This document shows, piece after piece, positions 14,990-38,771 of a DNA stretch of 64,000 nt (its first letter is position 1; every line of letters starts with the position of its first letter). Made by a program: the position numbers and the translations under genes. Source of the stretch: Lachnospiraceae bacterium UBA3850 (lineage in GTDB: Bacteria > Bacillota > Clostridia > Lachnospirales > Lachnospiraceae); assembly GCA_002392655.1 (NCBI GenBank), contig DGHK01000019.1, positions 25,556 to 89,555 on the forward strand, given 5' to 3'. The notes under the pieces are model-generated. The model made no database searches. It saw nothing but the letters and a program-made list of their open reading frames with translations, and was not told the origin of the DNA.

Positions 14990-15262
14990 CCGCGCGACTG
15001 GCTTTGCAAAGCCCACACGAGCGTTACTTTGGCAGTTAACTCAACCCAGGCTGCCTCACGGCGCACAGAGAGGTTCTGCTTAGTGCTGCTTTGTTCCCAA
15101 CCTGACACGGTTCACAGATTCCTGTCGCGTAAGACCTAAGTATCAACGTCACTTACCGAAGGCAGCCCCGCATGAACAATTCGGGGCCAGTCATCACCCC
15201 TGCTGTAGCGGATTGCAGGTACAGGGCACCGCTATCTCCCCGGCTGCGCGAAATTTTATAAC
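14990..15262 (-). ncRNA. ffs: Signal recognition particle RNA, large (Bacillus) type
   Basis: The RNA core of the signal recognition particle, which targets membrane and secreted proteins with Ffh. The minus strand shows the conserved S-domain motif around 15078-15109 (GTCAGGTTGGGAACAAAGCAGC then ACTAAGC) and the 5' Alu domain (GGGGAGATAGCGGTGCC, CCTGTACCTGCAATCCGC). The two ends pair (AAATTTCGCGC with GCGCGGATTT). At about 270 nucleotides it is the long form with an Alu domain. It fills the 394-base gap between tadA and the HD gene. The exact ends are estimated from the promoter and the end pairing. Confidence 0.93.
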
Positions 15263-26909: not shown

Positions 26910-27902
26910 TTAATCCTCCTGATCTGCCAGGAAGTCTATATACTTTCCTGTTCCGACAGCCACAACAGACATCGGATCCTCTGCAGTAACAGTAGTGATA
27001 CCTGTCTTCTCCTCTATAAGCTGTTCCAGTCCGTGAAGCAGTGCGCCTCCTCCTGTAAGAACTATACCTCTGTCAGAGATATCAGCCGCAAGCTCAGGCG
27101 GAGTCTTCTCCAGAACAGCATGTATAGCCTCTACAACCTGTGCAGCCGGTTCCCTGAGTGCTTCCTCAGTCTCATCAGATGTGATAGTAACTGTTTTCGG
27201 AAGTCCTGTCACCAGATTTCTTCCCCTTACATCCATAGAGATATTCTCAGGACGCTTATAGCTGGTTCCGATATTAATCTTTACCTCCTCAGCACTTCTT
27301 TCACCAATGAGAAGGTTATGTCTCTTTCTTATATACTTGATGATGGCATCATCAAAATCATTTCCAGCAACCTTTATGGATGATGTAACAACAGGACCAC
27401 CCATAGATATAACAGCTACATCAGTAGTTCCACCACCGATATCAACTATCATATTACCTACCGGTCTTACTATATCAATTCCTGCGCCTATTGCTGCAGC
27501 TATAGGCTCCTCAACGATATTAACATATCTTGCACCGGCATTATATGTAGCTGTCTCAACCGCTCTCTTCTCAACCTCTGTAGCTCCTGACGGAACACAG
27601 ATAGATATACGCGGCCTCCTTCCGAAGAGATTACGTCCTATCGCCTTCTTTATAAAGTACTTAAGCATCTCCTCAGCCTTAGTATAGTCTGAGATAACAC
27701 CATGCTTAAGTGGTCTTATGGCGATCAGGTTACCCGGAGTTCTTCCAAGCATCAGACGTGCTTCCTCTCCGATTTCAACTATCTTCTCCGAATCTTTATC
27801 ATAGGCGATAACTGTAGGCTCCTTCAGAACCACGCCTCTTCCCCTAACGTATACAAGAATACTCGTTGTACCAAGATCTATTCCTATATCCAGATTTGCC
27901 AT
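26910..27902 (-). CDS. mreB: Rod-shape-determining protein, MreB/Mbl family
   Basis: A 330-residue bacterial actin that organises sidewall peptidoglycan synthesis at the inner membrane. Nucleotide-binding motifs are DIGIDLGTTSILVYV (phosphate 1), MIVDIGGGTTDVAVIS (phosphate 2) and GIVLTGGGALLHGLEQ (adenosine). NLIAIRPLKHGVISDY is the usual MreB stretch. It has no mreC or mreD next to it, so it may be an Mbl- or MreBH-like paralogue. It is cotranscribed, 14 bases behind, with an unusual PAS/GAF protein, which is not a typical mreB partner. The gene is followed by a long hairpin. Confidence 0.94.
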   Translation of the reverse strand: MANLDIGIDLGTTSILVYVRGRGVVLKEPTVIAYDKDSEKIVEIGEEARLMLGRTPGNLIAIRPLKHGVISDYTKAEEMLKYFIKKAIGRNLFGRRPRISICVPSGATEVEKRAVETATYNAGARYVNIVEEPIAAAIGAGIDIVRPVGNMIVDIGGGTTDVAVISMGGPVVTSSIKVAGNDFDDAIIKYIRKRHNLLIGERSAEEVKINIGTSYKRPENISMDVRGRNLVTGLPKTVTITSDETEEALREPAAQVVEAIHAVLEKTPPELAADISDRGIVLTGGGALLHGLEQLIEEKTGITTVTAEDPMSVVAVGTGKYIDFLADQED

Positions 27903-27916
27903 TTATTCTTCCTCTC

Positions 27917-29665
27917 TTACTCCGGATTAATAACCAGTACAGATGCTATCTCATCATCCTTCCATGCGAGATAATGCTCTGTAACGTCGTATATTCCATC
28001 CAGCTTATCTATATATCTCTTATACTTAGCTGTCTTGAAATATAGCGCATCCTTATTAGTCATATCCAGACCTTCATACTCTTCATTCAGACTCGGAATT
28101 ATTCCGAAACTGTTCTGTCCCACTATATCGTATCCCAGCTTCAATTTCAATGAAGGATTTGTATAAATTACGCGTCCACTTTCAACATCTCGCACAAGAA
28201 TCATTGCCGAAATACTTTCAAATATATTCATTACAACCTTTGAGGCATCCACCTTGGTCTTGAGCCTTTCCTCGATCATAAGATCGCGAGACATCATTTT
28301 GGTGATTTCCTTCGCAAAAGATATTTCCTCTTCGGTCCATATTCTCTCTTTTGAATTCTCTATAAATACAAGACGGCCATGGTATTCACCTGAAAGATAA
28401 AGCGGAAATACCATTACTGCTCTGGCGTTACCCTTAAATATCTGAACTCTCATCTGGTTGGTCATATTCTTTTTATCTACAACCAGACCGCCTTCTCTGA
28501 TCTTGTTCTGAAGCTCAACATCATAATGATCAGACTCCCAGTCAAATGTCTCAACCGCCTCATCACTCTTACCGTTCTTTGCCCAATAATCAATCAGCTT
28601 ATAATAACCCGGTCTCTCATCATCAATCGCAAAATAAGCAATAAAATCAACATCCATCAGAGTTCCAACATTCTGATAAACATTTTCAAGGTTGGACCTG
28701 TCACCATCAGCTATTATTTTCAGAATATTTTCAGTAAGCTCTTTAGCGTTTCTCTCAAACTCAAGCTCAGTCTTTATATTTTCCTCTTCCTCATTTATAA
28801 CACTTCTGACATAAAGGCTTGTAATAATGTCCGAAATACTTTCAGCTGTTTTAGAAATACTGTCAAATGCCTTAAAAAGCTTCTGATTCTGATTCTTATT
28901 ATGAGCATACACAATCCACGCCGCTGTAAAACGCCCATCCTTGAAAACAGGTGCCGCTATAAAACGACTATCCGGATTACCATCGTCAATCTCCGAATAA
29001 ATAGCCTGTTTCGAATCAACTATACACCCAACAACATCACCGTAAAGCTCCTTATTGTCAGGATTCACTACCATCTCATAAAACTCGCCAAGATAAGGCG
29101 TAGGTCCGGTAGGAGGAACAAGTATATGACCATTTATATCCAGAACTACACTGTATAACTCACACACATTGGCAAAGCTGTTAAACAGATCATCGATATG
29201 TTTTTCAGCAAGGAACTCAGGTGTGATATTACCCTCTGTATCAGAATTATCAGGTGCACTTTCAACAGTAGGCTCAGTATAGTCAGGTTTATTTATCTCT
29301 CTTATAACAAACTCAAGATACTTAAGCCCATCCTTTTCAGGCAAATGTATGATATCGACATTTACATTTCTGACCTGTCCGTCGTCCCCGATATTTCTGA
29401 CCTCATAGGAAAAATTCTTAGACTCCGAAAGTGACATAGTAACAGCTTCATTAAAGCGCTGTCTATCATCAGGATGAACATAATCATCAATAAGTCTGTA
29501 TCCCTGCTTCAAAGCCTCTGGATTAATCCCGAGAGAAGAAGCATTTGAGGATATATATTCAAGTCTCTTTCTGTTCAAGGAAGCAGACATAGAAATAGAA
29601 GTCACAACAATAACAAGCCCGGTTTTTTCCAGAGCAGTCTGTATGATATCCAGCTCATTTAACAT
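27917..29665 (-). CDS. Soluble PAS/GAF sensory protein without an output domain
   Basis: A 582-residue protein built only from sensory domains. Residues about 5-125 look like a PAS domain (DDYVHPDDRQRFNEAVTMSL, a classical PAS 'HPDD' stretch). About 155-275 resembles a PocR- or GAF-type ligand domain (LYSVVLDINGHILVPPTG), then a coiled coil and a GAF domain (about 310-470, VFPLYLSGEYHGRLVFIENSKERIWTEEE, typical GAF ending). A last PAS segment (MILVRDVESGRVIYTNPSL) closes the protein. No kinase, GGDEF, EAL, HTH or methyl-accepting domain is present, and no membrane helix. Domain assignments are from motif reading. It is 14 bases upstream of mreB in the same transcript. Confidence 0.78.
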   Translation of the reverse strand: MLNELDIIQTALEKTGLVIVVTSISMSASLNRKRLEYISSNASSLGINPEALKQGYRLIDDYVHPDDRQRFNEAVTMSLSESKNFSYEVRNIGDDGQVRNVNVDIIHLPEKDGLKYLEFVIREINKPDYTEPTVESAPDNSDTEGNITPEFLAEKHIDDLFNSFANVCELYSVVLDINGHILVPPTGPTPYLGEFYEMVVNPDNKELYGDVVGCIVDSKQAIYSEIDDGNPDSRFIAAPVFKDGRFTAAWIVYAHNKNQNQKLFKAFDSISKTAESISDIITSLYVRSVINEEEENIKTELEFERNAKELTENILKIIADGDRSNLENVYQNVGTLMDVDFIAYFAIDDERPGYYKLIDYWAKNGKSDEAVETFDWESDHYDVELQNKIREGGLVVDKKNMTNQMRVQIFKGNARAVMVFPLYLSGEYHGRLVFIENSKERIWTEEEISFAKEITKMMSRDLMIEERLKTKVDASKVVMNIFESISAMILVRDVESGRVIYTNPSLKLKLGYDIVGQNSFGIIPSLNEEYEGLDMTNKDALYFKTAKYKRYIDKLDGIYDVTEHYLAWKDDEIASVLVINPE

Positions 29666-29742: not shown

Positions 29743-30648
29743 TCAGTCTTCAGCCGCTTCAGCCGCCGGCTTCATATCAGAAAAAGCGCTGTCAGTAATC
29801 TGCTTAGTTTTGTTAACTGCTGCATTCACATCTGTAAGTGCTGTTTGAAGCTGAGCCATAAATCCGCTGATTGAATCAAACTCTCTCTTAACGATAGCTC
29901 TATTCTGACGGATCTCATCTCTTGATTCAGCCTTGGCCTTGTCACACTCACTGATAGTATCCTCTTTAAGTCTTGCACAAGCTGCCTCAGTCTGTGACTT
30001 AAGATTCTCACAAGCAGTCTCAGTCTGTGACTTCATATTCTCACATCTGACTCTTGTTTCCTCTGAAAGCTTATCTGTCTCTTCCTTTGTCTGTCTCTTC
30101 AGGCTGTCGCACTCAGCATAGGTTGTTTCCTTCTGCTCCTGACAACTACTCTGTGTCTCTGAAAGAAGTCTGTCACACTCTGACTCTGTAGCAGTCTTGA
30201 GCTGCTCGCAGCGTGCGGTAGTCTCCTCTATCATTGATTTACACTGAGCTGTAGTCTCAGCAGTTTTAGCCTCACACTCTTCCTTTGTCTTGGTAGTAAG
30301 AGCGTCTGCTGACTCTCTTGCTGACAAAAGTGTTCTTGATATTGACTCGTATCTTGAAGCAGATTCCATCTCTCTGGTCTTGTAACCTTCGAGATCCTTC
30401 TTCAGCTGCTCTATTTCAGTCTGAAGCTGTTCATTTACAGTCCTCAGATCATCTATAGTACTCTTTGACTCAGTCATATTGGCTTCTCTCATCTGCTGTA
30501 AGCCTTTAACAGCTTCGCTAAGCTTAGTAGCGTCGTCCTTTAGTTTTGTAATCTCGTCCTCATATTTCTTCTTCTGCTCCAGAACATACTTCTCTGTAGC
30601 ACCCTTGTCATATCCACCAAAGGACACTGTTTTGATCTCTAATGCCAT
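29743..30648 (-). CDS. DivIVA-like coiled-coil protein with an 11-residue cysteine repeat
   Basis: A 301-residue soluble protein. The start (EIKTVSFGGYDKGATEKYVLEQ) resembles the DivIVA/GpsB membrane-binding domain with its G-Y-D turn. Residues 25-110 are a normal coiled coil. From 125 to 235 the chain is a hendecad array: Cys at 125, 136, 147, 158, 169, 180, 202, 213, 224 and 235, exactly 11 apart, with Thr at the one missing place (191). Spacer residues are T, E, K, S and A with Leu/Met at fixed places, e.g. CENMKSQTETA and CENLKSQTEAA. The C-terminal 60 residues form another helix with an acidic Ala-rich tail. Function is unknown; polar scaffold or division protein is inference. Confidence 0.85.
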   Translation of the reverse strand: MALEIKTVSFGGYDKGATEKYVLEQKKKYEDEITKLKDDATKLSEAVKGLQQMREANMTESKSTIDDLRTVNEQLQTEIEQLKKDLEGYKTREMESASRYESISRTLLSARESADALTTKTKEECEAKTAETTAQCKSMIEETTARCEQLKTATESECDRLLSETQSSCQEQKETTYAECDSLKRQTKEETDKLSEETRVRCENMKSQTETACENLKSQTEAACARLKEDTISECDKAKAESRDEIRQNRAIVKREFDSISGFMAQLQTALTDVNAAVNKTKQITDSAFSDMKPAAEAAED

Positions 30649-30752: not shown

Positions 30753-32570
30753 TTACTCTACCGTAACTGACTTAGCCAGATTACGTGGTTTATCTACATC
30801 AAGCCCCTTTGCATCCGATGTATAATAAGCAATAAGCTGAAGTACAACAGCTGTCGCAAATACACCAAATACACTGTCAACCTTAGGTATGTATATCTGC
30901 TGATCACATACCTCTGAGCTCTCAGTCTTACCTTCGTTTGTTACCAGGATCACATATGCACCACGTGACTTAACCTCACGTACATTTGATATAACCTTCG
31001 AATAAACATGCTCCTCTGTAGCGATTGCTATAACCGGTACCTGCTCTGATATAAGCGCTATAGTTCCGTGCTTCAGTTCTCCAGCAGCATAGGCTTCAGA
31101 ATGTATATATGAAATCTCCTTCAGCTTAAGTGATGCTTCGAGACTGAGTGTATAATCAATTCCACGTCCTATGTAGAAAACATCAGGAGCTGTCTTGATA
31201 TGGTTTGCGATGCCTCTTATCTCATCAGACGCTTTAATTGTCTTCTGCATCAGCTCACCGACTCCTGAAAGCTTATCCATAAACTGCTTTGTCTCTTCCT
31301 CTGTCAGAACACCTCTGACATATCCCAGTCTTGCAGCGAGTATATACATGGCTGCTATCTGAACTGTATATGCCTTTGTACTTGCAACGGCTATCTCCGG
31401 ACCTGCATGTGTATAAAGTACATAGTCGCTTTCACGAGCTATAGTTGAACCCTTTACATTTACTACTGAAAGCACCTTGCTGCCCTTCTGTTTTGAAAGC
31501 CTGAGTGCTTCAAGCGTATCAATGGTTTCACCTGACTGAGATACAACGATAGTAAGTGTTTTCTCATCTATGATCGGATCCTTATATCTGAACTCTGATG
31601 CAATCTCAACTGTTACAGGTATACGAAGCTTAGATTCGATGATCGACTTTCCGACCATACCCGCATGCATAGCCGTACCGCACGCAACTATAACTATATC
31701 CTTCAGATTCTTCAGAAGATCATCATCGATTCCATCATCCTCCAGATATGGAAGTCCGTCCTGAATTCTCGGAGCAACCGTTCTCTCTATTGCCTCAGGC
31801 TGTTCATTGATCTCCTTCAGCATGTAGTGTGGATATCCACCCTTTTGAGCAGAGGTTATATCCCAGTTAACCTCAAGTATCTCAGGCTCTACAGCACGAC
31901 CCTTAAGGTCCTGAACCTCTATTCCACTCTCAGAAAGAGTAAGTATATGATATTCAGGGACAACAAAGTACTTCTTTGAGAAGTTAATCACTGCAGTCAG
32001 ATCAGATGCTATTATCGATCCACCCTCAAAAGAAGCTGCAACCATAGGACTTACATTTCTTATTGCAAATATCTTGCCGGGCTGATCCTCAAACATAATG
32101 CATAGTGCAAAGGATCCCGCCAGCAGATTAACAACCTTCTTAATTGTTTTGTAAGGATTTCCCTCATAAAATTTATCCAGAAGTGCTGCAACAACCTCAG
32201 TATCCGTTTCGGACTTAAGTATATTCTTAAGTCCATATTCTGAGGTAAGCTCCTTATAGTTTTCAATAATTCCATTGTGGCATATGGTTACTGCCCCCTG
32301 ATTATGCGGATGTGCATTTGTCTCTGTAACACCACCATGAGTTGCCCATCTGGTATGTCCTATACCACAAGTTGCATCTGTTTTTTCTTCCTCAGCAGCC
32401 TTTGCAAGCTCTTCAACCTTTCCAGTCTTTTTCTTAAGAAAAAATCCGGTATTTGGATCAAGAACTGCTATTCCGGCACTGTCATAGCCTCTGTATTCCA
32501 GCTGCTTAAGTCCATTAATTAGTATATCCTTTGCAGGCTCACTGCCTGTATATCCAATTATTCCGCACAT
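30753..32570 (-). CDS. glmS: Glutamine--fructose-6-phosphate aminotransferase (isomerising)
   Basis: A 605-residue enzyme that makes glucosamine-6-phosphate from fructose-6-phosphate and glutamine, the entry step to UDP-GlcNAc and peptidoglycan. The glutaminase domain begins with the nucleophile Cys2 (MCGIIGYTG) and includes HTRWATHGG. The two SIS domains (about 285-600) carry CGTAMHAGM, SQSGETIDTLEALR and the C-terminal DKPRNLAKSVTVE. The reading frame continues 61 codons upstream, but Cys2 must be N-terminal, and AAAGGAG lies 8 bases before the ATG at 32570, so that start is certain. It is controlled by the ribozyme in its leader. Confidence 0.97.
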   Translation of the reverse strand: MCGIIGYTGSEPAKDILINGLKQLEYRGYDSAGIAVLDPNTGFFLKKKTGKVEELAKAAEEEKTDATCGIGHTRWATHGGVTETNAHPHNQGAVTICHNGIIENYKELTSEYGLKNILKSETDTEVVAALLDKFYEGNPYKTIKKVVNLLAGSFALCIMFEDQPGKIFAIRNVSPMVAASFEGGSIIASDLTAVINFSKKYFVVPEYHILTLSESGIEVQDLKGRAVEPEILEVNWDITSAQKGGYPHYMLKEINEQPEAIERTVAPRIQDGLPYLEDDGIDDDLLKNLKDIVIVACGTAMHAGMVGKSIIESKLRIPVTVEIASEFRYKDPIIDEKTLTIVVSQSGETIDTLEALRLSKQKGSKVLSVVNVKGSTIARESDYVLYTHAGPEIAVASTKAYTVQIAAMYILAARLGYVRGVLTEEETKQFMDKLSGVGELMQKTIKASDEIRGIANHIKTAPDVFYIGRGIDYTLSLEASLKLKEISYIHSEAYAAGELKHGTIALISEQVPVIAIATEEHVYSKVISNVREVKSRGAYVILVTNEGKTESSEVCDQQIYIPKVDSVFGVFATAVVLQLIAYYTSDAKGLDVDKPRNLAKSVTVE

Positions 32571-33166: not shown

Positions 33167-34276
33167 ATGAGCAGAAAAATCAAAAAAAGAGCGGCCTTGC
33201 TGTTCGTGCTATTTTTATCGGCAGGACTATACTTCAACACTGATGCCTATGCAGAAGAAAAAAGCGGACAGAATAGTCAGAATAAACAGGAAATGCAGGA
33301 AACTCCGGAGCCTCAGGAACCGGAAATTCTCACAGGATGGAATCAGTTTGATGGACTATGGTACTTCTATGATGATGAGGGAGTATATCAGACCAGCTGC
33401 TATGTAGAGGGATACTGGCTGGACGAGGATGGGGCGTGGAGATATCCTTATCAGGCTTATTGGCATGGCGGTCCTGGTAACTGGTGGTACGGCGATGACA
33501 GCGGTTGGTATGCATATAACTGCTGGCTGAAAATAGACGGAGACTGGTACTACTTTGATGCATTCGGTTATATGTGCTATAACTGTTACATCGGAGCCTG
33601 TTATCTGAATGATAATGGAGTATATACCGACACCGAAAATTCCCGTTGGGCTGCAAACATCTCAGACAGTGAACTGGCTGGTTATTTCTCTAATTCCGTT
33701 GTTGTCGGAGATTCCATCTGTTCAGGTTTTTCCATGTACTGCAGTGGAAGCGGCGATCCGGTAGCAAACCAGTTTACTTTTATGGCTAGCACAAGCTTCG
33801 GAATTAATAATGCACTGACCTTCCATTCTACTACTCCAACATATATGGGAGTGAAACGACCTATCTGGGAATCAATAGCCCGATCTGGTGCAAGTCATGT
33901 TTATATATCTATGGGAATAAATGATATAGGCTCTGATATCTTTGCCTCACAGTATGAGTCTCTGATAAGCAAGATAGTCCAGTATTCTCCCGGAATCGAA
34001 GTAACCGTCTGCGGTGTAACCGGCATTAGATCCGGAAGAGAGAGATGGGTCTTCACAAATGCAAATGTAAATTATTGGAACGCACAGCTAAGAGCTATGT
34101 GTATCCGAAACGGCTACGGCTTCATCGATCTGAATTCATGGGTAACTGACGGTTACGGACTATATGCTGGATACTGTTCAGATGGATTTGTACATCAAAA
34201 CAGTGCAGCATATTCCAGATGGCTGGAGGCCTTTAAGAGCTACGGAAGAGCCGAGCTTGTAAAATACTACGATTAA
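33167..34276 (+). CDS. Secreted SGNH/GDSL hydrolase with cell wall-binding-like repeats
   Basis: A 369-residue exported protein. A signal peptide (MSRKIKKRAALLFVLFLSAG, ending near TDAYA) is followed by a Glu/Gln/Pro linker. Residues about 60-160 hold Trp/Tyr-rich repeats of the choline-binding type (LTGWNQFDGLWYFYDDEG, WLKIDGDWYYFDAFG). The catalytic domain starts at VVVGDSICSGF (nucleophile Ser), continues with YISMGINDIGSD (block III G-x-N-D) and ends with CSDGFVHQNSAAY (catalytic Asp/His). SGNH enzymes are esterases of acetylated sugars, peptidoglycan or teichoic acids; the wall-binding part suggests a surface substrate. It stands alone between glmS and a bidirectional terminator. Confidence 0.88.
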   Translation: MSRKIKKRAALLFVLFLSAGLYFNTDAYAEEKSGQNSQNKQEMQETPEPQEPEILTGWNQFDGLWYFYDDEGVYQTSCYVEGYWLDEDGAWRYPYQAYWHGGPGNWWYGDDSGWYAYNCWLKIDGDWYYFDAFGYMCYNCYIGACYLNDNGVYTDTENSRWAANISDSELAGYFSNSVVVGDSICSGFSMYCSGSGDPVANQFTFMASTSFGINNALTFHSTTPTYMGVKRPIWESIARSGASHVYISMGINDIGSDIFASQYESLISKIVQYSPGIEVTVCGVTGIRSGRERWVFTNANVNYWNAQLRAMCIRNGYGFIDLNSWVTDGYGLYAGYCSDGFVHQNSAAYSRWLEAFKSYGRAELVKYYD

Positions 34277-34342: not shown

Positions 34343-35917
34343 TTAATATGGGCTGTACATCAGATCCTCTATGTCCTTATGACCATATTCATACATCTTA
34401 TCGATTATATAATCCTTAACTTCGTCAGGTGCATTTATCTCGATAATCTCAAGGAAGTTGTCCACATACTGACACCACTTATCAAAGGCTTCCTGTTTGT
34501 CAGACTCTGTAGGCTCCTTGGTAGCCTTATCATGATCAAAGCCGAGATTTTCTTCAGAACGAAGTATCTCTTTCATTCCCAGTGACTTAAATGTAATTCC
34601 GTATGCAATCCTCTGAAGTTCCTCTGTTCTTACGAATGCACAGTCATACATCTCTGTGATGAGGTCGAGAACTATATCATCACCATTATCAAAGTAATGG
34701 CACTTGAAATACATATCCTCTTTTCTCGTAAGTCCTTCGATATCCTGTGTATTATACCAGAAATACTTAGAGGTCTTGATCGGGGCAACCGGTCTCTCAG
34801 AAACGCCCTTGCCCTTCTTCTTGTTCTTCTTTTTCTTTGATGCAGGAGCAGGTGTAGGATTCTCCTCAAGGAATTCCTTAACCTGTTCTATATTCTCCTT
34901 AGATGTTGTCTCTATAGCATTTACAGGATTAACTGTAATCTTGTTCTGGAATGTCTTCGCCGGTGCTGCATCTGCTTCAGCAGCTGCACTTTCGGCTATG
35001 GCTATTCCTGCTGCTATAGCACTGTCTGCTGAAGCTTCACCTGATAGCATAGACTCCGGAGTGGGATTTGGAATAAGTGGTTCCTTTTTCTCCTCATATG
35101 CAGGCTTATCAACAAATGCACTGTCAAAGGATGCGTTGTACTCAGGTGCCTCAGCTCTTTCCTTAGCCATCTCATTCGGATTCTTCTCTGACTCCTTGGC
35201 TTCCTTACGAGCCTTCCTCAGTTCTTCCTTTATCTTCTTTGTATCAACAACAGCAGTCTTGGCAGTTGCAACCTCTTCAGTCATCTCCTTATTTGATGAC
35301 GATTTCAGATCAAGCTCATCAGTGATATTTCCAACGTCCGGATCCGGTCCATCAAAATCATCATCCATATAATCATCAGACAGATTATCCTGAACATCTA
35401 CATCAGCTTCCTCAGAAACAGACTCTGACTCCGCCTCATCTCTATCCTCATCCTCGTAGCTGTCATCATAGTCGTCACCGTCTTCGTCATCACCGGACTC
35501 TCCTGCGGCAACCTGTGCAGCAATCTTACGTACTCTGGCTGCGGCATTCTTTCTGGCTACATCCTCTTCAGCTTTTTCCTCCTCAGCAGCTTCATCTGCA
35601 GCTACCTCACTGATCTTCTGCGCCTCAGCCTTTGCCTGAGTTTCCTTAACGGACTCGACAACCTCGCGAACCTTTCTGGACATATCATCTTCGTCGTCAT
35701 CATCCAGATCATCGTCTTCTTCAATCTCTTCTTTCAGTTTTTCCAACTTTTCCTTCTTCTTATCCTCAGCATCCTCATCCTCAAAATTAGAAGACTTAAG
35801 TGCCTTTATTGTAATGATAATAAGAACAAGCAAGAATATAAGCAACACTGCCGCAAACCCCATGATTACAAGTGTTGAGGTTTCCATACTCTTTAACATA
35901 TCGAGAAAATCTTTCAC
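34343..35917 (-). CDS. Membrane-anchored acidic protein of unknown function
   Basis: Not recognised. A 524-residue protein with one membrane helix at about residues 15-40 (TLVIMGFAAVLLIFLLVLII) and no cleavable signal. Residues 45-370 are low-complexity, very acidic (runs of D and E, e.g. EEDDDLDDDDEDD) with Ala-rich stretches, probably disordered. The last 140 residues look folded (YFKCHYFDNGDDIVLDLITEMYDCAF and YVDNFLEIIEINAPDEVKDY). The open frame reaches upstream to 35953, but AAAGGGG lies 8 bases before a GTG at 35917, chosen as the start. It has its own promoter and stands between two envelope-related genes. Confidence 0.8.
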   Translation of the reverse strand: MKDFLDMLKSMETSTLVIMGFAAVLLIFLLVLIIITIKALKSSNFEDEDAEDKKKEKLEKLKEEIEEDDDLDDDDEDDMSRKVREVVESVKETQAKAEAQKISEVAADEAAEEEKAEEDVARKNAAARVRKIAAQVAAGESGDDEDGDDYDDSYEDEDRDEAESESVSEEADVDVQDNLSDDYMDDDFDGPDPDVGNITDELDLKSSSNKEMTEEVATAKTAVVDTKKIKEELRKARKEAKESEKNPNEMAKERAEAPEYNASFDSAFVDKPAYEEKKEPLIPNPTPESMLSGEASADSAIAAGIAIAESAAAEADAAPAKTFQNKITVNPVNAIETTSKENIEQVKEFLEENPTPAPASKKKKNKKKGKGVSERPVAPIKTSKYFWYNTQDIEGLTRKEDMYFKCHYFDNGDDIVLDLITEMYDCAFVRTEELQRIAYGITFKSLGMKEILRSEENLGFDHDKATKEPTESDKQEAFDKWCQYVDNFLEIIEINAPDEVKDYIIDKMYEYGHKDIEDLMYSPY

Positions 35918-35960
35918 AACATTGTCCCCTTTCAACCAAAGAACACAGTTCAACTATCTA

Positions 35961-38574: not shown

Positions 38575-38771
38575 TAAATATCCAAGATGCCGGCTCCTAC
38601 TTTTTGACTCCTAGCTAAGGCTAGGTGGGTACTTGCAATGCAGCTTCTGATGTCCACTCAAGGAGGCATATCATCCACTCCACGATATTAAGTTCCCTTC
38701 AAAAATATGTAGGTTCAAAATACGCAGGAGTTATCGGGCACCCCAGATATTTAACTCTAATCATATATGAT
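38575..38771 (-). ncRNA. ssrS: 6S RNA (probable)
   Basis: A non-coding RNA of about 197 nucleotides filling the gap between PFP and the YihY gene. 6S RNA mimics an open promoter and binds sigma-A RNA polymerase. The two ends form a long closing stem: AAATATCTGGGGTGCC near the 5' end pairs over 16 positions (with G-U pairs) with GGCATCTTGGATATTT near the 3' end, then CTCCTGC pairs with GTAGGAG after a bulge. A small hairpin CCTAGC-CTTA-GCTAGG and the central open region fit the 6S shape. A strong promoter and a terminator flank it. The assignment rests on structure, not on a database hit. Confidence 0.65.

Follow-up and report, generated by a model that had tools for sequence, protein, structure and literature searches.

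A conserved ladder of cysteines spaced by eleven residues in a DivIVA-like coiled-coil protein of Lachnospiraceae

Proteins of the DivIVA/GpsB superfamily start with a GYD motif that is followed by a coiled coil, and the protein described here has the same order of parts. DivIVA-like proteins homodimerise through this coil and localise to cell poles or the septum. In PMC9858780 (Martinez-Goikoetxea and Lupas 2023), G as the first residue of the motif is a reported variant, and SepF, FtsZ, FtsA and others are named as gene neighbours of DivIVA. The same paper states that one core residue per hendecad repeat faces the axis of the coil and that dimers need small residues there, particularly Ala; the word cysteine is absent from the main text of the paper. 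Scy and FilP of Actinobacteria are alike in having a DivIVA-like start and a long hendecad rod, and are reported in PMC9858780 to be confined to that phylum; their cores are rich in Ala, and R mostly precedes GYD. Hendecad coiled coils have core positions a, d, e and h according to the portion of PMC6131620 at hand, which treats ATP synthase b and other peripheral-stalk hendecads; these share the 11-residue repeat, and that portion mentions no cysteine ladder. A regular column of cysteines, there called a "cysteine ladder", is known from leucine-rich repeat proteins such as InlJ, in the excerpt available. The latter are solenoid repeats and not coiled coils. No hendecad with a cysteine ladder is described in the literature searched, outside of which lies a broad published survey of hendecads.

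The window, that is the whole stretch of DNA analysed, is 64,000 nucleotides of contig DGHK01000019.1 from Lachnospiraceae bacterium UBA3850, a bacterium of gut and rumen. The ladder gene (29743..30648, minus strand, as are all parts of it given below) encodes a DivIVA-like coiled-coil protein of 301 residues, assigned by homologue search and PF05103. A DivIVA-like loop motif (F-G-G-Y-D-K..., residues 10–21, 30586..30621), placed by motif counts among the homologues and by matches of the family profile to GpsB and DivIVA structures, is followed by a first helical rod segment (residues 22–120, 30289..30585) that lies within a predicted AlphaFold helix of residues 15–184. Then comes an array of 11 hendecad units (residues 125–245, 29914..30276) with Cys at position a in ten units and Thr in one, and a predicted break of the helix at residues 184–188 (30085..30099), seen as a dip in pLDDT and a DSSP break, falls just before the missing rung at Thr191. 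The conserved C-terminal helical region (residues 246–301, 29746..29913) is recognised in the alignment by VKRE...TK..AD.AF, has last residues of low confidence, and resembles by eye that of the ladder-poor orthologue G188 discussed below.

An earlier note on this DNA had listed cysteines at residues 125, 136, 147, 158, 169, 180, 202, 213, 224 and 235, with Thr at the empty site 191, and had read a hendecad periodicity from them. All ten are present and fall in one class modulo 11 (spacings of 11 five times, 22 once and 11 three times), there is no Cys elsewhere in the protein, and Thr191 has the codon ACA. A chance origin can be ruled out, as the largest number of cysteines sharing a class in 20,000 shuffles of the protein was 7, reached in one shuffle, against ten in the protein itself. 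Among the 290 open stretches of at least 60 amino acids in the window, examined for periods 2–59, the ladder protein has the longest run of equally spaced cysteines, 6 at spacing 11, and the runner-up has 5 at spacing 15. The periodicity is likewise borne out by the coil as a whole, where the residue identity is 0.33 at lag 11, 0.25 at lag 22 and 0.32 at lag 33, and does not exceed 0.135 at any other lag between 2 and 39, Cys counted in. At the DNA level the 11 units are on average 0.46 identical, with a highest value of 0.88, and TRF finds in the gene a single 33-bp array of 2.1 copies; not all of the repeats are recent copies. The low mean identity, together with Cys columns far better conserved than the rest, led us to reject recent slippage copying as the sole cause of the cysteine conservation.

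The DivIVA-like N-terminus that had been proposed is upheld by the GYD motif, by PF05103 and by profile matches to GpsB and DivIVA. In a set of 121 proteins, made up of the window protein and the best 120 of 134 homologues found at E≤1e-3 in a protein search, 120 have GYD, and the DivIVA-like motif GYDxxEVD, with R, E or G as its first residue, can be followed in them. FG stands before GYD in 118 of these 120; the V of the motif is V in 107, T in 12 and D in one, its D is D or E in 119, and its E is replaced by A or S in 118. The window protein reads GYDKGATE, with T and E for the V and D. PF05103 is recognised in 31 of 33 aligned members (E≤0.01), and the window protein itself stays under the cut-off of 28 bits, with 19.2 bits or 26.2 in the genome scan; two other matches in the assembly exceed it, with 115 and 48 bits. 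The family profile aligns from its position 7 on with the N-termini of GpsB and DivIVA structures at E 0.04–0.08, and NCBIfam DivI1A_domain is matched by 17 of the 33 at E≤0.01. At the same threshold 21 of them score with the Scy model of NCBIfam, the best at 1.2e-9, but the family differs from Scy/FilP in belonging to Lachnospiraceae and Eubacterium, in having G before GYD and in its Cys/Thr core, and cannot be placed there. From DivIVA it is set apart by the rod of T-xxx-C hendecads. ATP synthase subunit b gives a weak match to the family profile (E 0.076), and differs also in that position e of the ladder is mostly Lys or Arg.

The cysteine register, for which the earlier note had proposed a search of related genomes, is conserved. 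Anchored on the YES[IV]S motif, which is found in all 121 proteins, 987 of their 1101 cysteines lie on one of the 11 phases. A further 96 are on the neighbouring phase, and in the alignment most of these look like the C-terminal Cys that stands 21 residues after the KREC Cys. All cysteines fall in a single class modulo 11 in 27 of the 121. The longest chain of cysteines in steps of 11 or 22 has at least 8 members in 61 proteins, 6–7 in 6, 4–5 in 51 and 2–3 in 3, so that the fullest ladders are found in about half of the set formed by the window protein and its best 120 homologues. Two flanking landmarks are present together in 101 proteins and their distance is 10 modulo 11 in 100 of them, indicating that the rod changes in length by whole 11-residue units. 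In 33 aligned rows, with gaps scored as different, identity to the window protein is 0.72 in the rung columns and 0.34 in the other ladder columns. Close orthologues with 9–11 cysteines occur in 21 loci labelled Lachnospiraceae or Eubacterium, several of them also labelled rumen, and two proteins inside the ladder clade (P0083 and P0106) have chains of only 4. Much of the family has a C-terminal pair of cysteines 21 residues apart (KREC ... AC), which can be made out by eye in the ladder-poor orthologues (L069, L070, L071) too; its first Cys is Phe in the window protein, in the region of residue 257.

The consensus ladder unit is C-E-x-L/M-K-x-E-T-x-x-x. In 682 distinct units (736 in a second count that set the end of the array differently) position a has the lowest entropy, 1.06 bits, with Cys in 82%, Ala in 6% and Thr in 6%. 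Position d is Leu in 51% and Met in 24%, together 75%, position h is Thr in 69% and Ala in 21%, and position e is Lys or Arg in 52%, which makes the core narrow. Compared with a hendecad of 11-residue period, predicted helix and apolar a, d, e and h, the ladder thus agrees at a, d and h and departs from it at e. On sequence grounds the cysteine is at core position a in a 3-4-4 spacing (a, d, h), where related hendecads have Ala. The AlphaFold monomer, computed from 33 sequences, has predicted helices at residues 15–184 and 188–288 with a mean pLDDT of 85, so that the structure prediction which the earlier note had called for gives a nearly continuous helix. In the 33 rows position 191 is T in 16, A in 13, C in 2 and V in 2, i.e. 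Thr, Ala or Val in 31.

The claim that the cysteines line up on one helix face is supported. They share one phase and lie on the apolar stripe, but the hydrophobic moment deviates from position a by 29–33 degrees with that position included and by 48–54 degrees with it left out, and the Cys therefore sits on or at the edge of the stripe. An untwisted model of the coil, which assumes parallel chains in register and a set of helix parameters, would place facing Cys CB atoms of a dimer at a distance of 3.9–5.6 A if the stripe centre is between -16 and -33 degrees; for a centre of -49 degrees the facing CB would be about 7.4 A apart, off axis, with SG at least 4.0 A apart. Successive rungs are 16.6 A apart in the model. 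Against parallel pairing in register, subunit b of bacterial ATP synthase, which is also a hendecad coil, is reported to have offset helices.

The identity of the rung residue covaries with that of the residue four before it. Of 561 distinct units with Cys at the rung, 506 have Thr at this place, 32 have Val and 13 have Ala; Ala stands there in 76 of 80 units with Ala and in 17 of 17 with Ser at the rung. Among 15 representatives with less than 60% identity, rungs with Cys have T/V/I in 96 cases, A/S in 5 and another residue in one, and rungs with A or S have A/S in 18 and T/V/I in 2, in a count where the end motif shortened some rows, that of the window protein to 6 rungs. The fuller rows of 11 of the 15 give 83, 5 and 1 for Cys, and A/S in 12 of 12 for A or S. 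Of 20 offsets compared in the 15 representatives, -4 differs most between the rung types, and the swaps are found at different rungs in different proteins; the rungs are not independent, and relatedness inflates any p-value for this covariation. The proteins thus follow two patterns, T/V/I-xxx-C and A-xxx-A/S, and the former would be a second solution to the problem of packing a small residue in a hendecad.

The earlier note had taken homologues that lack the register as evidence against its reading. The register is mostly kept, and the exceptions are three syntenic orthologues without the full ladder: that of G188, where the rungs are Ser as read by eye, and those of G106 and G334, with laddered chains of only 3 and 4 cysteines. 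Their best matches are 27–32% identical to the window protein, and in a tree of 26 rows made without the coil and rooted at the midpoint they are split from the rest on long branches. Since these syntenic orthologues lack it, the full ladder is not needed for the core role of the gene. Few of the genomes sampled have the ladder gene. Matches to the protein at E≤1e-3 were found in 18 of 299 family genomes, some of them through other coiled coils, and a DivIVA-type ladder of at least 6 cysteines in six of the 299 (G000, G040, G070, G129, G160 and G180). A phylum-wide census with profile A2 gave matches at E≤1e-5 in 6 of 398 genomes, a lower bound, as other genomes known to have a ladder are absent from the matches listed and may not have been sampled. 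Two of the six matches are ladder proteins, the window's own and that of G180, and in the other four no ladder was seen, one of them (L103) having two cysteines 33 residues apart. One more protein came from a further protein search with an 86-residue profile, in which only short candidates were scored.

Searches of the family genomes also gave further ladder proteins, namely L072 (541 residues, chain of 19 Cys), L073 (198 residues, 8 Cys), L074 (220 residues, 9 Cys), L075 (338 residues, 7 Cys) and L076 (311 residues, 13 Cys). The chain of L072 (L072:7001-8626, minus strand), in steps of 11 or 22 residues, is the longest ladder seen, in a sequence that is partly masked. Judged by the parts that precede the ladder, the ladder proteins outside the window family are of two kinds. 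The AGSIAEA group (L072, L073, L074, L076 and P0121-P0134), with an N-terminus ELKKLSR...AGSIAEA, shares with the window protein the register C-E-x-L/M-x-x-E-T/V-x-x-x and has ladders of 4–19 cysteines, and a helix is predicted for L076 by AlphaFold. The N-termini of the group (L072, L073, L074, L076 and P0136) match each other at E 1e-7 to 1e-28, whereas they match the window protein at E 0.17 or worse; the genes of L073 and L076 adjoin signal peptidase I. The other kind is L075 (genome G118), which like the window protein has laddered cysteines, all 7 with Thr at -4, and a GGFD motif similar to the DivIVA loop, but is otherwise only weakly alike (26% identity, E 0.001–0.11). At 142 rungs of 19 proteins outside the window family, several of them near-copies, the residue at -4 is T in 85, V in 22, I in 7, A in 19 and another residue in 9.

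Each of the three kinds of ladder protein has relatives with Ala or Ser at the rungs. P0136 of the AGSIAEA group has Ala hendecads in place of the ladder, and the N-terminal part of L075 shares 40–44% identity with those of L092 and L093, whose hendecads are of the Ala type and which have just one Cys (for L092, L093 and L095 the automatic phasing settled on position h, and A-xxx-A was read there by eye). Repeated replacement of Ala by Thr/Cys would be the simplest reading of this distribution, and rod segments exchanged between genes are a possible source of the recurrence. Taken together, the window protein is a DivIVA-like coiled-coil scaffold with a hendecad variant that is real, conserved and recurrent.

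Downstream of the ladder gene there is a gene with a PAS domain over the cut-off and weak matches to GAF_2 and a second PAS (27917..29665, minus strand), followed by an actin of the MreB/Mbl type (26910..27902, minus strand; PF06723, E 5.2e-136). No second MreB was found in the assembly, the other PF06723 match (65.7 bits) being an Hsp70. Directly upstream on the same strand is glmS (30753..32570, minus strand), with a start inferred at MCGIIG, preceded by a glmS ribozyme (RF00234, 32639..32829, minus strand, 48.5 bits against a gathering threshold of 37). The PAS/GAF gene adjoins the ladder gene in 27 of 27 loci (6 of 6 in L002-L007 and 21 of 21 in L023-L043), a count that left out loci of other proteins, repeat genomes and G106, for which there is little DNA. 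It is also adjacent in all 8 of the longer contexts L064-L071, six of which are from the genomes of L002-L007. MreB follows in 19 of the 21 loci L023-L043, the other two contigs ending first, and in 7 of the 8 longer contexts, where the remaining contig stops within the PAS/GAF gene; four of these eight continue into what we take to be flagellar rod and hook genes. A glmS match is found upstream in 18 of the 21 loci, in L034 at only 46% identity. These neighbours differ from those named for DivIVA. Going by gene order, the scaffold probably works with the PAS/GAF protein and MreB in the organisation of cell shape or wall, but gene order is no proof of interaction. A gene for an iron-only hydrogenase with ferredoxin domains separates glmS from the ladder gene in L065 (L065:4504-5994, plus strand), and L064 and L066 have genes with similar starts at the same place. 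A lipoprotein-like gene without a Pfam family is also near the ladder gene of L065 (6056-6751, minus strand), with homologues in 11 further loci of the 29 compared and none in the window.

For the role of the cysteines we favour, with a probability of about 0.5, a DivIVA-like scaffold in which Thr and Cys are an alternative small-residue packing for the core of a dimeric rod, with stapling by thiols as a possible addition. A DivIVA-type dimerising loop and coil at the N-terminus would lead into an extended, almost straight rod of hendecads, with a conserved helical region at the C-terminus. The core residue facing the partner should be small, usually Ala in A-xxx-A and in the ladder clade the Cys of T-xxx-C, and in a parallel dimer in register the facing cysteines would form a central column. 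In a reduced cytoplasm their first role would most likely be packing, as small apolar residues, and, more speculatively, the thiols could pair as disulfides on entry of air or bridge soft metals. Packing is the best supported role, but since Ala is enough for packing alone, it leaves unexplained why an oxidisable residue is found in 82% of the units and why it recurs. These two points, the Cys as the most conserved position of the repeat and the same register in two other kinds of protein, would be expected if the ladder were a built-in response of an anaerobe to oxygen, in which consecutive disulfides between the chains stiffen or lock the scaffold. The dimer model would also allow SG-SG distances of 2.0–2.5 A for stripe centres of -16 to -33 degrees, and a hydrogenase gene is located beside the ladder gene in L065. 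Such a role is nevertheless rather unlikely, given the syntenic orthologues with Ser or only 3–4 laddered cysteines, and a hydrogenase-like gene is not seen in most loci. By eye there is no hydrophobic N-terminal segment for export, and the protein is therefore probably in the reducing cytoplasm. Nor does any column in an alignment of 14 PAS/GAF partner proteins hold Cys in more than half of the rows (two columns reach 7 of 14), for which reason redox sensing by the partner's own cysteines was also rejected; the alignment took only partners above 500 residues and the first match per locus, giving 14 of 30 sources (the window and 29 loci).

Binding of a soft metal such as Zn, Cu(I) or Cd by two, three or four facing thiolates, giving a rod that is stabilised by metal or stores it, has a precedent in designed parallel coils with core Cys, e.g. 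the Ni(Cys)3 trimer (in the part seen of PMC10299331). Trimer and tetramer models would give SG-SG distances of 2.3–4.0 A at stripe centres of -16 to -33 degrees, while a dimer offers two thiols per rung, and the modelled rise between rungs would leave no site within one chain. No metal-handling gene was recognised nearby, in neighbours mostly compared with the window's own genes, and we find this role doubtful. An amphipathic 11/3 helix that binds lipid, like those of apolipoproteins, is very improbable. An apolipoprotein profile picks up 21 of the 33 members at E≤0.01, and the best-ranked matches among solved structures are apolipoproteins, but such matches are expected between any helices of 11-residue period. 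The window protein has E 0.014 and 15.5 bits against PF01442, where the cut-off is 90, and the ladder is acidic, with 29 D/E and 19 K/R in 122 residues. The apolar stripe formed by its positions a, h and d covers an arc of about 65 degrees, narrow for lipid binding.

The scaffold would be a natural coiled coil, apparently evolved repeatedly, whose core cysteines form an unbroken column, and gene order links its gene to that of MreB, the actin of cell shape. The T/V/I-xxx-C versus A-xxx-A code is directly testable by mutation and could teach rules for hendecad design, and the family offers a system in which to ask whether anaerobes use protein rods as sensors of oxygen or metal. A wider proposal, on the unlikely side as a whole, is that T-xxx-C hendecads arose from Ala hendecads more than once and are a recurrent type of natural coiled coil in the anaerobic Lachnospiraceae. 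Their central column of facing thiols would then make rod scaffolds switchable, as a disulfide zipper or metal ladder, and so couple the shape machinery of MreB and DivIVA to the state of redox or metal.

Elsewhere in the window, a secreted-looking GDSL hydrolase with choline-binding-type repeats (a weak match) is encoded beside glmS at 33167-34276 (plus strand). It is followed at 34343-35953 (minus strand) by an acidic protein of 536 residues with an N-terminal hydrophobic segment and no Pfam family over the cut-off, a homologue of which is found near the ladder gene in L023, L035 and L037. Rfam models place a 6S RNA at 38575-38752 (minus strand) and a large SRP RNA at 14990-15251 (minus strand), and a 37-bp tandem repeat of 2.3 copies is located at 1975-2058.
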